This document shows positions 2,833 to 19,215 of a stretch of 64,000 nucleotides of DNA, piece after piece; within the stretch, counting starts at the first letter, position 1, and every line of letters starts with the position of its first letter. The position numbers and the translations under genes are program-made. The notes beneath the pieces were generated by a model. It ran no database searches. It was not told where the DNA came from and worked only from the letters and a program-made list of their open reading frames with translations. The DNA comes from Phycisphaeraceae bacterium (GTDB lineage Bacteria > Planctomycetota > Phycisphaerae > Phycisphaerales > Phycisphaeraceae): positions 1 to 64,000 of the forward strand of contig JADZCR010000006.1 of NCBI GenBank assembly GCA_020851465.1, given 5' to 3'.

Positions 2833-4446
2833 ATGGCCAAGAAACAACTCATATTCGGTAACGAGGCGGCAGTCGAGCTTCGCAAGGGGCTTGAGCAACT
2901 TGCAGCCGCGGTCAAGAGCACCCTCGGTCCCGCCGGTCGCAACGTCGTGCTCCAGAAGAGCTACGGCAGTCCGGCTGTCACCAAGGACGGCGTCTCGGTC
3001 GCCAAAGAGATCGAACTCGCCGAACCGTTTCAGAACATGGGCGCGAAAATGGTTGTCGAGGTCGCCAAGAAGACCTCTGACAAAGCCGGTGACGGCACCA
3101 CCACTGCGACCGTGCTCGCCGAGGCGATTTATTTGGAAGGAATCAAGCACGTGACGTCGGGATTGAATCCCGTGTCCTTGCAGCGCGGCATTCTCGCCGC
3201 CGCCGATGCCGCCAGTGAAGCCATCAAGGAAATGGCGATCAAGACCAAAGGCAAGGATGACTACCAGAAGGTTGCGACCATTTCCGCCAACGGTGACAGC
3301 CAGATCGGCGCGCTCATCGCAGAAGCGATTGAAAAGGTCGGCAAGGATGGCGTCGTCGAGATCGAAGAAGGCAAAACGGCTGACACGTCACTCGAATATG
3401 TCGAGGGTATGTCGTTCGACAAGGGTTACCTGTCGCCTTATTTCATGACTGATCCAGGCACTCAGGAATGTGTGCTCGAGGATGCGTTGATCCTCATCAA
3501 CGAAAAGAAAATCAGCAACCTTCCCGACCTGCTCCCGCTGCTCAACAAAGTGGCGATGGCGCAGAAGCCGCTGCTGATTATTGCGGAGGAAGTGGAAAAC
3601 GAAGCGCTGGCGGCACTGGTCGTCAATCGTCTCCGCGGCGTGTTGAAGGTTTGTGCGGTCAAAGCACCGGGCTTCGGCGACCGCCGCAAGGCCATGCTCG
3701 GCGATATCGCCGTACTCACCGGCGGCACTTTCCTGAGCGAAGACCTGGGGCAGACGCTCGAAAATCTTGAGCTTGATGCTCTGGGTAAGGCCGCGAAGAT
3801 CGTCATCGACAAAGACAACACCACGATCATCCAGGGTGCTGGCAAGAAGAAAGACATCGAGGGCCGTATCGAGCAGATTCGCGGACAGATCGAAAAGACC
3901 ACCAGTGACTACGACCGTGAAAAACTTCAGGAGCGACTCGCTAAGCTCACCGGCGGCGTGGCGATCCTGCATGTGGGCGGCGCGACTGAGACAGCGATGA
4001 AAGAGCGAAAGGATCGCGTGGACGATGCGCTTCACGCGACCAAGGCCGCAGCGCAGGAGGGCTACGTGCCCGGTGGCGGCGTCGCTTTCCTACGTGCGAT
4101 TCCCGCTGTCGAGGCCGCCAAGAGCAAGGCCAAGGGCGATGAGAAGAATGGCTTCGACATCGTTATCGCTGCACTGGAGGCCCCGCTGCGCCAGATCGTC
4201 ACCAACTCAGGTGAGGATGGCTATCTGGTCGTCGAAAACGTACTCGAAAAGAAGGGCAGTGCGGGCTACGACGCGGCGACCGGTCAATATGTGGATATGG
4301 TCAAGGCTGGCATCATTGACCCAGCCCTGGTTGCCCGTACCGCATTGTTGAATGGGGCCTCGGTTGCGGGCCTGATGCTGACGACCAACGTCCTTGTCAG
4401 CGAACTCAAGGAAGACAAGGACGCGGTTGTCGGCGCGGTGTCGTAA
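2833..4446 (+). CDS. groEL2: Chaperonin GroEL, paralogue 2, without GGM tail
   Basis: Second 60-kDa chaperonin, 537 residues, with the same core motifs ([30 protein letters not shown]) and start MAKKQLIFG preceded by AGGA. It ends at VVGAVS directly after the last conserved beta-strand, so the flexible Gly-Gly-Met tail that lines the folding cavity in most GroELs is absent. The sequence differs from groEL1 at many positions, so this is an old duplication and not a recent copy. It lies 30 bases after groES. Which of the two copies is the main chaperonin cannot be told from sequence; the pairing of one tailed and one tail-less copy suggests divided roles. Confidence 0.96.
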
Positions 4447-14566: not shown

Positions 14567-16147
14567 ATGAAAACGATACGACTGGCAGCGGTGGGGGCGA
14601 TCTTCACTTCGTTTCTGTTTGGCTGCACGAGCTACGAAAGCTCCGGTGATTCGGCGACGCTGCGCACCGATACGCCCCAGCCTCGCTACACGACTGCGCA
14701 GCAGCCGACTCCCGTTGCTGCGTCTGTCACCTCCGACGGACGGACATCGCTCGCTTTCCCAACCGGCGACCGTGCGACGAGTGTCGTGGCAGTCGATCGC
14801 GTCGCGCCGACTGAGTGGACCGCTGGGCAGGCCTATGACTACGACCTCCACGTAACGAATCTCACTTCCGTGGCTCTCAACGAGGTCGTGCTGGTGGAGC
14901 GCACGCCGGCAAATCTGAAAATCAGCGGCTCAACCCCGGACGCCACTTCGCGGAACGATGGCGAACTCCGCTGGGCCATGGGTTCACTTGGGCCGCGGGA
15001 AACCCGGAGCGTGCGTATCCGTGCGACAGCCGCAGCTCGTGCCGAAGATCAGGCAGCAGCGACCGCTCGCGAGTGCATCTCGGTGACTTACGTGCCCTGG
15101 GCGTGCGTGCCGGTTCAGGTTGTGCAGCCCATGCTCGAACTCGTCGCTTCCGCGCCGGCGGAGGTGCTGCTCTGCGAGAGGATTCCCGTGAAATACACGG
15201 TGACCAACCGCGGCACGGGTGCTGCGCGTAACGTGGTGATCCGGCATGCGCTGCCGACCGGCGTCGCACCGCGCGGCTCCACCGCTGAGCAACTCGAAGC
15301 GCGTGTGGAATCGCTGGCTCCCGGTGAGTCGCGGTCATTCGTCGCCAACGTCAACGCCAGCAAGACCGGCAGATACACCCAGAGCATCGCGGCTGCTGCG
15401 GACGGAGGACTCAATGCCAACGCGACTGCTTCGACCGTTGTTCGTGAGCCGGTACTGAGCATCAAAAAGACGGGACCGCAGACACTCTTCCTCGGCCGCG
15501 ATTTTTCTTATGACATCGTTGTCACCAACATCGGTGATGGAGACGCCCGCGACGCCGTCGTCGAAGATACGCTGCCCGGTAACGCCCAACTCGTCAGCGC
15601 CACCGGCGGCGGCACTTCAGCTAACGGGAAAATCTCCTGGAACCTCGGCACACTCAAGCCCCGCGACGCCCGCAAGGTCACGGTTACGCTTCGTGTTGAA
15701 CAGGCGACGTCTGTCGTCAACACCGCGACCGCCCGCGCTCAGTGCGCAGCAGAGGTATCTTCGACGATCACCACTGCGGTGCGTGGTGTGCCGGCAATCC
15801 TTCTCGAAGTCGTGGATGATCCTGATCCGATTCCGGTGGGTGGGGAAGTGACCTACACGATCCGCGTTACAAACCAAGGCTCAGCTACGGGAACGAACAT
15901 CAAGATCACGGCTGGCCTCGAAGACACCATGCAGTTCGTCTCCGCGACAGGGCAGACCCCCGGCTCCGCCAGCGGGCAGAATGTTGCATTCGCAGCACTC
16001 AAGTCACTAGCCCCCAAGGCTGCGGCTGAATGGAAAGTCGTCGTTAAGGCGGTTAAGACCGGCGACGTGCGCTTCCGCGTCGAGATGAACAGCGACCAGC
16101 TCGAACGTCCCGTGACCGAGACCGAAGCATCCAACTTCTACCAGTAA
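14567..16147 (+). CDS. OmcB-like DUF11-repeat lipoprotein
   Basis: Predicted envelope lipoprotein of 526 residues: signal peptide with lipobox LFGC (Cys at about residue 20), then four DUF11-type immunoglobulin-like repeats starting near residues 88, 205, 310 and 425 (each with a YDIVVTNIGDGDARDAVVEDTLP-like pattern; key features VTN and a Gly/Asp turn). Between repeats 1 and 2 is a cysteine-bearing link (ECISVTYVPWACVPVQVVQP). By memory of the family, this order and the last 110 residues resemble the chlamydial cysteine-rich envelope protein OmcB, but with far fewer cysteines. It likely stiffens or coats the outer membrane or peptidoglycan. Monocistronic, divergent from the deacylase operon, 115 bases apart. 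Confidence 0.8.
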   Translation: MKTIRLAAVGAIFTSFLFGCTSYESSGDSATLRTDTPQPRYTTAQQPTPVAASVTSDGRTSLAFPTGDRATSVVAVDRVAPTEWTAGQAYDYDLHVTNLTSVALNEVVLVERTPANLKISGSTPDATSRNDGELRWAMGSLGPRETRSVRIRATAAARAEDQAAATARECISVTYVPWACVPVQVVQPMLELVASAPAEVLLCERIPVKYTVTNRGTGAARNVVIRHALPTGVAPRGSTAEQLEARVESLAPGESRSFVANVNASKTGRYTQSIAAAADGGLNANATASTVVREPVLSIKKTGPQTLFLGRDFSYDIVVTNIGDGDARDAVVEDTLPGNAQLVSATGGGTSANGKISWNLGTLKPRDARKVTVTLRVEQATSVVNTATARAQCAAEVSSTITTAVRGVPAILLEVVDDPDPIPVGGEVTYTIRVTNQGSATGTNIKITAGLEDTMQFVSATGQTPGSASGQNVAFAALKSLAPKAAAEWKVVVKAVKTGDVRFRVEMNSDQLERPVTETEASNFYQ

Positions 16148-16436: not shown

Positions 16437-17555
16437 ATGGCCGTTCCGATTTCGCAGATGTACACGGTGGCGACCTACGTGCTGGGTCAGAAGCTCAAAG
16501 GCCGCAAGCGATATCCGCTGGTACTGATGCTCGAGCCGCTATTCCGTTGCAATCTCGCCTGCGCGGGCTGCGGAAAAATTCAGTACCCCGCCCACATTCT
16601 CAAAAAGAACCTCAGCCCCGACGACTGCTTCAAGGCAGTCGAGGAATGCGGCGCTCCGATGGTTTCCATCCCCGGCGGTGAACCGCTCATGCACCCGCAG
16701 ATCGGTCAGATCGTCGAGGGACTCATCGCGCGGAAAAAATACATCTACCTCTGCACCAACGCGCTGCTGCTGAAGGAAAAGCTCGAAGCTGGTCTTTTCA
16801 AGCCTTCCAAGTATCTCACCTTCAGCGTACACATGGACGGCATTGAGGAGAACCATGATTTTGCCGTCTGCCGAGAAGGAACATACAAAACCGCCACCGA
16901 AGCGATTCGCTTAGCTGTCTCGATGGGTTTTCGTGTCACGACCAACTGCACGCTCTTTCAGGGTGCGGACCCCAATGAGGTGCGACAGTTCTTCGATGAG
17001 ATGACCGCGCTGGGTGTTGAGGGCATGATGGTCAGCCCGGGCTACAGCTACTCCAAGGCCCCCGATCAGGGCAGCTTTCTGCACCGCGAAGAAACGAACA
17101 ATCTCTTTGAGATGATCCTGTCGAACCGCAAGAAGGGATGGAACTTCAACCAGAGCCCGCTGTTTCTGGAGTTCCTCATGGGTCGGCGAAATTACGAATG
17201 CACCCCCTGGGGCATGCCGACCTACAACCTCTTTGGCTGGCAGAAACCCTGCTACCTGCTTCAGGAAGGGTACGCGGAGACCTTTGACGAGTTGATGCGT
17301 GAAACGCAGTGGGATAATTACGGCCACAAGAGCGGTAACCCCAAGTGCCAGGACTGCATGGTCCACTCAGGCTATGAAGCCAGCGCGGTGAATCACACGT
17401 TTTCCAGCTTCGGCGGGATGTGGGCGACGATCAAAGCCATGATCTTCAACACCTACGCCAATCCGTCAGCAGGCAAAAAACTCAAGGATCACAAGCCGAC
17501 GCATAAGCACGGTCAGGCGGTGGTCCAACTGACGGTTCGTGCCGGTGCTGCATGA
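16437..17555 (+). CDS. hpnH: Adenosyl-hopene transferase HpnH (radical SAM)
   Basis: Radical SAM enzyme, 372 residues, that attaches the adenosyl group of SAM to diploptene, the first step in making extended C35 hopanoids. The iron-sulfur motif CNLACAGC is at about residues 38-45; GGEPLMHP follows, and a C-terminal cysteine cluster ([28 protein letters not shown]) is characteristic of HpnH with SPASM-like cysteines. The N-terminus [20 protein letters not shown] fits HpnH exactly. No other hpn gene is adjacent, although a small squalene-cyclase-repeat protein lies 11 kb away. Hopanoids strengthen the outer membrane of many planctomycetes. Confidence 0.95.
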
Positions 17556-17683: not shown

Positions 17684-19105
17684 TCAACGGCGTCCGCGCA
17701 TAAGCAGCAGTCCTCCAACCGCCAGTAACGCGAGACTTGCCGGCTCAGGCACAAAGATATTGGTCAGCCTTACGCTTCCGCCGTTGGTGAGGAGTTGGTC
17801 GTAGTGGAAGGTGGCCGGCACGTTACCAAGCGTGACCGAAGGTGTCCCGCTGAGCGAGCCGTAGGTGAAAAGCACCAGGTCTTGTCCATCGACATAGCCG
17901 CCGCCTTCGATGAAGTTGAGGTCGAGGGTAAACGCATTGAGCGTAAGAGTATTGGTGACATTGACGACGCCGTCATCCGCACCGAAGCTCAACGCCAGCT
18001 TCATGTTTGGCGAACCGGTGAACGATCCTACATTCAGCGTGTTGACATCCAGATCGAGCCGCGAATTGGCCGTGACGGTAAAAGCGCCGGTGGTAGCCAG
18101 ATCCTGATCCAGTTTGATATTGCCGGTATCACTGGGAACACTGGGATTTCCGACGTAGAAATGATTGGTCAGAGTTGTACGGGCGATCGAGATGGTACGC
18201 GGCGTCACCGGCGCGCCGGTGAAATAAATGTAGCCCGTGCCGTAGCCGGCTGCGGTTGCTGCTCCGTGGTCGAGGAAGTTACCGCGCGCATAGAAGTAGC
18301 CGTCAGCATTAACATGCAGTTGCAGGTTGGCGTTGTTCGATCCGGTAGGCGCGTAGATGTTCACATCTCCCAGGGTGGTCAAGGCGTAGCCGTATTGGAA
18401 GGCGAGCTTGGCCTCTGTCGCGGCACCATCCTTCCCGATGTCGAGATGACCGAGTGTGCCTCCATAGAAAAAGGAAGATGTTCCACTGCCGGGAGCGAGA
18501 ACGAGCCGGGATGTCGGATCGAAGGTCGCATTGGGGTAGAAGGATGAGCCTGTCGAGAGTTCCACTGTGACGCCAGGGCCGATGATGCTGCCTCCGTAAT
18601 AGAGGCTGTAGAGTTTGAGAGTCCCGCCGGGGGCACTGGTCTGGTAGGAGACTTGGCCGATATTCCCGTTCACAGATGACGGTTCGTTGAGGGTGTAACC
18701 GTTGAGGTCGATGACCATGTTGGAGATCGAAGAGCTGGAGTTGTGGTAATGTCCCGGCTGATAGCCGGTAAGAGTCAGATCATTACCCAGCGTGATCTTG
18801 TTGACTGCGTTTGATGTCTGAGTGAAGTCCAGGTCGCCGATGGTGGTGGGTGTCGATGGCGTGATGATATTGCGATCTGAAGTCGTATCACCGATGAATG
18901 CCTGCTCTGAACCTGAATTAGGAATGTTGTCCGAAGTCCAGTTCCCCGCGACATCCCAATACTGATCGCCTACCCCCGGCGATCCGGAACCGGCACCCCA
19001 GTACAAGTCCGTAAAGGCCGATGCCTTCGTCGTTGGTAATAAGACGATGATGGTCAAGATTAGTGTTGTTTTGATACTTTTTGAATTGGTCATACCAAAA
19101 TGCAT
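17684..19105 (-). CDS. PEP-CTERM-anchored secreted protein
   Basis: Exported protein of 473 residues. The start at 19105 is chosen because AGGAGA lies 6-7 bases upstream; the frame stays open another 23 codons without a ribosome site. A signal peptide (TTLILTIIVLLPTTKASA) is followed by a Gly/Ser/Thr/Asn-rich beta-helix-like body beginning with DLYWGAGSGSPGVGDQYWDVAGNW, the form of autotransporter-type passenger strands. The end VPEPASLALLAVGGLLLMRGRR is a PEP-CTERM signal (Pro-Glu-Pro, hydrophobic helix, Arg-rich tail), which an exosortase would process. Probably a cell-surface or extracellular-matrix protein. Two palindromes lie upstream. Confidence 0.92.
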   Translation of the reverse strand: MHFGMTNSKSIKTTLILTIIVLLPTTKASAFTDLYWGAGSGSPGVGDQYWDVAGNWTSDNIPNSGSEQAFIGDTTSDRNIITPSTPTTIGDLDFTQTSNAVNKITLGNDLTLTGYQPGHYHNSSSSISNMVIDLNGYTLNEPSSVNGNIGQVSYQTSAPGGTLKLYSLYYGGSIIGPGVTVELSTGSSFYPNATFDPTSRLVLAPGSGTSSFFYGGTLGHLDIGKDGAATEAKLAFQYGYALTTLGDVNIYAPTGSNNANLQLHVNADGYFYARGNFLDHGAATAAGYGTGYIYFTGAPVTPRTISIARTTLTNHFYVGNPSVPSDTGNIKLDQDLATTGAFTVTANSRLDLDVNTLNVGSFTGSPNMKLALSFGADDGVVNVTNTLTLNAFTLDLNFIEGGGYVDGQDLVLFTYGSLSGTPSVTLGNVPATFHYDQLLTNGGSVRLTNIFVPEPASLALLAVGGLLLMRGRR

Positions 19106-19170
19106 GTCGGTTCTCCTGATGAGGGTAGATACCAAACAATCCGTTAAAAATCGCTGCAAATGATTACGTA

Positions 19171-19215
19171 GCAAAACCGTTTGCTATGTGCAGCGTTGTC
19201 GAGGAATCCTCGACA
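19171..19215. promoter_or_regulatory. Tandem palindromes upstream of the PEP-CTERM gene
   Basis: A perfect 19-bp palindrome (TGTCGAGGAATCCTCGACA, 19197-19215, 9-bp arms around one base) lies about 95 bases before the start of the PEP-CTERM gene. A second inverted repeat, GCAAA-ACCG-TTTGC (19171-19184), lies 12 bases closer to that gene. Neither is followed by a T-run, so they look like operators rather than terminators. The rest of the 430-base gap (19106-19533) up to the isomerase gene holds nothing else I can name. Confidence 0.5.

Follow-up and report, generated by a model that had tools for sequence, protein, structure and literature searches.

A low-cysteine DUF11 lipoprotein of a Phycisphaeraceae bacterium as a probable envelope relative of chlamydial OmcB

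Introduction

The chlamydial envelope has OmcB as its backbone. A gene of a Phycisphaeraceae bacterium, a planctomycete, raises the question of whether this backbone has a true relative outside the Chlamydiota and, if so, whether the cysteine-poor or the cysteine-rich form is the older one. The gene lies in a window of 64,000 nucleotides (the whole stretch of DNA that was analysed, located on contig C6; the genome comprises 3.41 Mb in 20 contigs). The first-pass annotation had described its product as a four-repeat DUF11 lipoprotein resembling OmcB by eye, a protein that cross-links the chlamydial envelope in place of much peptidoglycan, and had proposed that it may be the ancestral, non-cross-linked form of a PVC envelope layer. 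A planctomycete OmcB devoid of cysteines is an old puzzle; the present analysis turns it into a definite claim, namely that the cross-link chemistry changed within the Chlamydiota.

Gene and domain organization

According to the open reading frame list of the window, the gene occupies positions 14567-16147 of the forward strand, starts with ATG, and encodes 526 amino acids. The predicted lipoprotein signal peptide (14567..14626, +) comprises a basic, then hydrophobic, N-terminus preceding the lipobox L-F-G-C20, with C20 encoded at 14624-14626 and Thr rather than Asp as the +2 residue. The C20 column holds Cys in 31 of 35 alignment rows. Lipoboxes were assigned throughout with a pattern of our own rather than with a signal-peptide program, and this pattern over-calls, flagging 6 of the 17 Chlamydia-type OmcBs. 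The signal peptide is followed by a low-complexity tether (residues 21-55; 14627..14731, +), with pLDDT below 50 over nearly its whole length, and 3 basic and 4 acidic residues in 42. OmcB carries a basic heparin-binding stretch, and none is apparent in this tether. Heparin binding is also mentioned in PMC2811131.

The remainder of the protein consists of four domains, all on the forward strand: domain 1 (residues 60-180; 14744..15106), which lines up with OmcB's PF03504 domain, domain 2 (residues 186-293; 15122..15445), domain 3 (residues 294-405; 15446..15781), and domain 4 (residues 406-526; 15782..16144), the last being CLIPPER-like (CLIPPER is the newer name of DUF11). Pfam detects four DUF11 stretches (E 3e-44), and each domain also matches DUF11 individually (29.5-63.2 bits); the lipobox-plus-four-repeats architecture noticed initially is confirmed. 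No adhesive domain was found with Pfam and NCBIfam, and no cell-wall sorting domain with Pfam. The cysteine-bearing link is also present as described: C170 (15074-15076) and C180 (15104-15106), which together span 15074..15106 (+), and C203 (15173..15175, +) lie between repeats 1 and 2, while C393 (15743..15745, +) lies at the end of repeat 3. The C-terminus bears the signature G499-D-x-R ... P-V-x-E-T-E-x-x-x-x-Y525 (16061..16141, +), common to OmcB.

Homology to OmcB

In BLASTP, the window protein and C. trachomatis OmcB align with 183 bits and 30% identity over 457 aa, and the alignment ends at the last OmcB residue, opposite residue 525 of 526. The OmcB query, taken as the C. trachomatis sequence, is 92.5-93.8% identical to loci L142 and L141, and scores 200 bits with PF03504. 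All 32 distinct chlamydial relatives align with the window protein at 138-211 bits (25-32% identity), the alignment extending to at least residue 520 in 31 of them. The resemblance first seen by eye thus holds in alignment. Sequence searches of plasmid and phage collections returned no record covering 80% of the query, and a PDB sequence search returned nothing meaningful (best E 0.13).

A rival reading is that of an ordinary short DUF11/CLIPPER surface stalk or adhesin, of which the likeness to OmcB reflects the repeat fold only. DUF11 repeats are indeed described as stalk domains of fibrillar adhesins in PMC9210967 and PMC12617251. Profiles for the individual domains, derived from non-chlamydial rows and run against the 32 chlamydial proteins, bear on this reading in both directions. 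For domains 1-3, the chlamydial medians are 66-85 bits and the generic bests 47-67 bits, and these domains alone would, therefore, not settle kinship; domains 2 and 3 part from generic repeats only modestly (for domain 3, a chlamydial minimum of 75.2 versus a best generic score of 67.4 bits). Domain 4, however, separates cleanly: its profile recognizes every one of the 32 chlamydial proteins, with a median of 123.6 and a minimum of 82.9 bits and with the match at the extreme C-terminus in 30 of them, but reaches only 44.0 bits in one test and 27.5 in another with the best generic DUF11 proteins. Moreover, generic proteins, drawn from six verrucomicrobial loci (7 long ORFs) and from six plasmid loci (ORFs of Streptomyces, Sulfitobacter, Paenibacillus, Synechocystis, and Deinococcus), give 22-79 bits on part of the query. 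The window protein agrees with OmcB in length, domain order, and C-terminus, and Pfam reveals neither an adhesive nor a cell-wall sorting domain in it. An ordinary stalk is, thus, unlikely. Generic DUF11 proteins as closest relatives, with nothing specific to OmcB, would have refuted the view of the first-pass annotation, and this is not what the comparison shows; on these profile scores, the last domain is specific to the OmcB family, and the window protein is, as judged from its sequence, a true full-length collinear homologue of OmcB, beyond the DUF11 fold.

PF03504 was considered as proof of this kinship and rejected. It gives 18.3 bits on domain 1, below its cut-off of 34.1, and the whole-protein sum of 36.5 bits passes merely by adding weak stretches, the strongest of which is in domain 3, while the PF03504 domain of OmcB is domain 1.

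AlphaFold models of the window protein and of OmcB (mean pLDDT 90.3 and 86.1) both have a low-confidence N-terminus and a strand order that is much alike. Domain 4 of the window protein superimposes on the solved CLIPPER domain 9ifr with a Z of 15.1 (rmsd 2.2, 117 aligned residues), and that of OmcB with a Z of 16.0 (rmsd 1.9, 117 aligned). Whole-chain matches from Foldseek and VIA are generic Ig tandems (integrins, pilins), and tight structural matches are of single domains only, for example, 9ifr and TTHA1873 to domain 4.

Distribution and phylogeny

A scan of the contigs of 84,980 species with an OmcB-led alignment, in which patterns from OmcB and planctomycete sequences favour matches of that kind, yielded 349 relatives; a contig scan led by OmcB alone found no relative. 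Of the best 80 among the 349, all but 1 contig labelled Alphaproteobacteria and 9 'bacterium' contigs are named as chlamydial, verrucomicrobial, planctomycetal, or lentisphaeral. The OmcB family is, accordingly, represented in Planctomycetota, Verrucomicrobiota, Lentisphaerae, and Chlamydiota. At E 0.001, matches occur in 60 of 151 genomes of Chlamydiota, and in 116 of 292 Planctomycetota and 35 of 240 Verrucomicrobiota, the latter two counts including generic DUF11 proteins. In the window's own genome family, 4 of 8 genomes match (its own genome counted). With such a patchy occurrence in its own family and in the Planctomycetota, the protein would, therefore, not form an essential layer.

An 84-row tree, built with a quick method, with SH-aLRT support only and with a midpoint root of our choosing, places a Planctomycetota half, joined by Lentisphaerae and five Verrucomicrobiota-set rows (L143-L147), opposite Verrucomicrobiota and Chlamydiota. 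In this tree, 16 of 17 chlamydial rows group together in a single clade (support 99). Several labels have to be read with care: the Lentisphaerae row stems from a 14.1-Mb bin, which is probably mixed, L111 is labelled Alphaproteobacteria yet branches among planctomycetes, and L058 and L073, labelled Chlamydiota, are filed under 'unknown', because the L058 copies branch apart from the chlamydial clade.

Among 190 loci, 36 neighbouring pairs of OmcB-family genes stand in tandem (e.g., L181, L103, and L085). Tandem copies also occur in an anammox enrichment. In some Phycisphaerae, a lipoprotein of about 760 aa is accompanied by a second, shorter copy that at times has no lipobox, an arrangement that recalls omcA-omcB.

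Genome context

The genome holds a second OmcB-family copy on contig C3 (47% identity), and encodes five Mur ligase matches, LspA, and VKOR. The idea of a layer in place of peptidoglycan is unsupported because of these Mur ligase matches. MOMP (PF01308) has no match in the genome, and none in the control genomes either. Around the gene are found hpnH, a PLP enzyme, an SDR, an AstE-like protein, and an RND pump; nothing next to it looks like a partner gene, and no omcA-like small cysteine-rich lipoprotein occurs among the surrounding ORFs of at least 60 aa. This neighbourhood was discarded as a clue, hpnH being adjacent in just one further fetched locus, L173. The hopanoid synthesis gene hpnH adjoins the OmcB-family gene on opposite sides in the two loci (window 16437-17555; L173 12-1106). 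Elsewhere in the window, a second cpn60-family chaperonin lies upstream of GroEL (621-2375 and 2833-4446), DnaJ following, and a 496-aa ORF (17684-19174, -) has no Pfam or NCBIfam match.

Cysteine content and predicted disulfides

The window protein has 4 mature cysteines, versus 24-70 in 31 of 32 chlamydial proteins. Medians were computed over 190 distinct full-length proteins, partial or open ORFs, ORFs shorter than 470 aa, L162, and duplicates having been left out. They amount to 7 in Brocadiales, in Phycisphaerae with other planctomycetes, and in Verrucomicrobiota alike, 12 in unlabelled genomes, 4 in 12 'long-type' forms (picked by locus, L168-L179, and not a tested clade), 33 in 'Chlamydia-type' OmcB (L125-L142, a group set on genome size and sequence identity rather than on names), and 52 in other Chlamydiota.

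The positions of the cysteines are more informative than their number. In 158 of 158 non-chlamydial proteins, columns 170 and 180 hold Cys in both or in neither (both in 139), and the same is true of columns 203 and 393 (both in 87); columns 271/289 (both in 40) and 384/402 (both in 28) likewise show no singleton. On the 84-row tree, these four pairs change 4, 3, 4, and 5 times, with 0 of 67 rows discordant. By DSSP, the verrucomicrobial pairs 271/289 and 384/402 are cross-strand hairpin partners in the model, and the strand order shows the joint between domains 2 and 3 flanked by C203 on its domain 2 side and by C393 on its domain 3 side. Since the pairs never occur singly in the 158 relatives, the four mature cysteines likely form two internal disulfides, C170-C180 and C203-C393, the latter acting as a predicted staple across domains 2 and 3.

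It could be argued instead that the protein builds a disulfide-cross-linked layer just like OmcB, its four cysteines bonding between molecules. The link cysteines sit where OmcB has Cys clusters (chlamydial cysteines cluster at the same two links, mostly in other columns), Planctomycetota relatives reach 14 mature cysteines, and the encoded VKOR would fit. Two strict pairs are, however, what is expected for bonds within one chain, the window protein has no spare cysteine, and peptidoglycan genes are encoded, which makes such a layer improbable. In the column of residue 449, Cys is present in 44 of 96 non-chlamydial rows and has no strict partner, and is, thus, a candidate for intermolecular bonds; the window protein has Ala there.

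Outside the chlamydial clade, the tree rows have a median of 3-10 cysteines in every labelled group, and a Brownian estimate on the midpoint-rooted tree puts the cysteine count at about 6 for the base and at 36 for the chlamydial node. A low cysteine content is, therefore, likely, although not proven, to be the older state, and cysteine richness to be derived within the Chlamydiota. Secondary loss, in which free-living lineages shed the cysteines of a cysteine-rich OmcB of the PVC ancestor, would be compatible with a root set by midpoint only and with four planctomycete proteins without any Cys, but is quite improbable, given that high counts are restricted to one chlamydial clade and that the Chlamydiota set itself includes a 2-Cys form outside it (L192 of genome G363).

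This L192 protein has 2 mature cysteines and an LMSC lipobox, and sits on a long branch. The OmcBs of non-Chlamydiaceae chlamydiae at L189, L190, L191, L193, and L194 have W[TV]GC lipoboxes; lipid-anchored OmcB may, hence, exist within the Chlamydiota.

Isopeptide triads

Isopeptide triads of DUF11 domains are common in surface proteins generally. According to PMC12617251, DUF11 received the name CLIPPER following a crystal structure that has a bond between Lys715 and Asn806, along with Asp748. This triad is matched in the window protein by K301 (15467..15469, +), D334 (15566..15568, +), and N385 (15719..15721, +) of domain 3, D334 lying 33 residues past K301, as does Asp748 past Lys715 in 9IFR. 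A K301-N385 isopeptide bond is, thus, predicted, with D334 as the putative catalytic aspartate. In domain 2, the triad has been lost, all three positions being changed (A194/H227/Q272), and domain 4 has no triad.

Across the family, the triad is present in domains 2 and 3, respectively, in 20 and 20 of 21 Brocadiales, 43 and 48 of 63 other planctomycetes, 36 and 36 of 43 Verrucomicrobiota, 18 and 18 of 18 unlabelled proteins, 1 and 1 of 1 Lentisphaerae, and 14 and 13 of 15 other Chlamydiota. It is found in neither domain in the 17 Chlamydia-type proteins (0 and 0) and the 12 long-type forms (0 and 0). Among the 178 Lys-bearing domains 2 and 3 (113 rows), none has the lysine without its partner D/E. 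In Chlamydia-type domain 2, a Lys and an acid stand one residue off the expected places, and may make a shifted isopeptide bond; the domain 3 lysine is gone.

A simple family-wide trade of isopeptides for cysteines was rejected, because both triads occur together with as many as 70 cysteines in other Chlamydiota, and because triads and cysteine richness are alike missing from the 12 long-type forms. Cysteine richness in the absence of the triad lysines is confined to Chlamydia-type proteins. It is conceivable, if somewhat doubtful, that OmcB began as a rod with irreversible isopeptides in domains 2 and 3, for which the Chlamydiaceae swapped in reversible disulfides. If true, a fixed rod would have become a redox-switchable one, which fits the cycle of elementary and reticulate bodies.

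Proposed function

Taken together, we consider it fairly probable that this OmcB-family protein acts as a lipid-anchored rod in the envelope, internally locked and docking via domain 4, and that this low-cysteine form is the older one. After Sec export, lipidation at C20, and presumed sorting to the outer membrane, the four CLIPPER/DUF11 Ig-like domains would form a stiff rod on a floppy tether some 35 residues long. The C170-C180 disulfide would lock the end of domain 1, the C203-C393 staple would span the domain 2-3 joint, and the K301-N385 isopeptide, catalysed by D334, would lock domain 3. The conserved domain 4 could then dock to a partner or to other copies, making a structural or spacer layer beside peptidoglycan, OmcB-like but working without OmcB's intermolecular disulfide network.

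Of the 'ancestral, non-cross-linked form' proposed initially, the first half stands, low cysteine being probably ancestral. The second is doubtful inside the molecule, because the Cys pairs strictly co-occur and domain 3 has a triad, both of which predict internal cross-links. The family history suggests that fixed internal cross-links stiffened the rod at first, and that cysteine richness arose only within the Chlamydiota. A low-cysteine, lipid-anchored planctomycete relative with mapped candidate cross-links offers an expressible starting point for work on the origin of OmcB.

Comparison with known systems

OmcB itself (CT443, the chlamydial 60-kDa cysteine-rich outer membrane protein) shares with the window protein four DUF11 domains that are collinear over the full length, the specific last domain, the C-terminal signature, and the strand order of the models. 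The window protein differs in having 4 mature cysteines (OmcB has at least 24), a lipobox, no adjoining omcA, and a PF03504 score below the cut-off in domain 1; it also keeps the domain 3 triad that Chlamydia-type OmcB is devoid of. Chlamydial OmcB is described as water-soluble, and not lipid-anchored, in PMC1403754.

That same source reported, in 2006, a cysteine-free OmcB homologue of Rhodopirellula baltica, and left its meaning open. This protein, CAD72259, is likewise a planctomycete OmcB homologue, with a mainly C-terminal similarity, but has 907 aa and, as reported, zero Cys. It would belong to the long-type forms (about 500-930 aa), all 12 of which are without lipobox and without triads.

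The CLIPPER stalk domain of an Acinetobacter fibrillar adhesin (PDB 9IFR), as presented in PMC12617251, where OmcB is unmentioned, has the fold and triad spacing of domain 3. Unlike this adhesin, the window protein is a short (526 aa) lipoprotein without adhesive domain, and its domain 4 adopts the fold but has no triad. The cysteine-rich YTV-domain proteins in the cell wall of R. baltica and Gemmataceae, which PMC8567305 associates with a proteinaceous wall, are also planctomycete envelope proteins, set apart here by name and motif only.

PMC2811131 (2009) lists OmcB as a 27-protein orthologue cluster including non-chlamydial bacteria, and states that orthologues of most outer membrane proteins of chlamydiae are found in Planctomycetes, Verrucomicrobia, or Lentisphaerae. 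The homology of planctomycete proteins to OmcB is, thus, already known (2006, 2009). Literature searches on OmcB together with planctomycetes, Verrucomicrobia, and PVC, mostly at the level of titles and opening lines of abstracts, yielded no description of the cysteine pairs or the triads. What looks new, from sequence comparison, is the strict pairing of the cysteines, the domain 3 triad (with triads widespread in the family yet missing from all 17 Chlamydia-type OmcBs), and a cysteine richness that is likely derived within the Chlamydiota.
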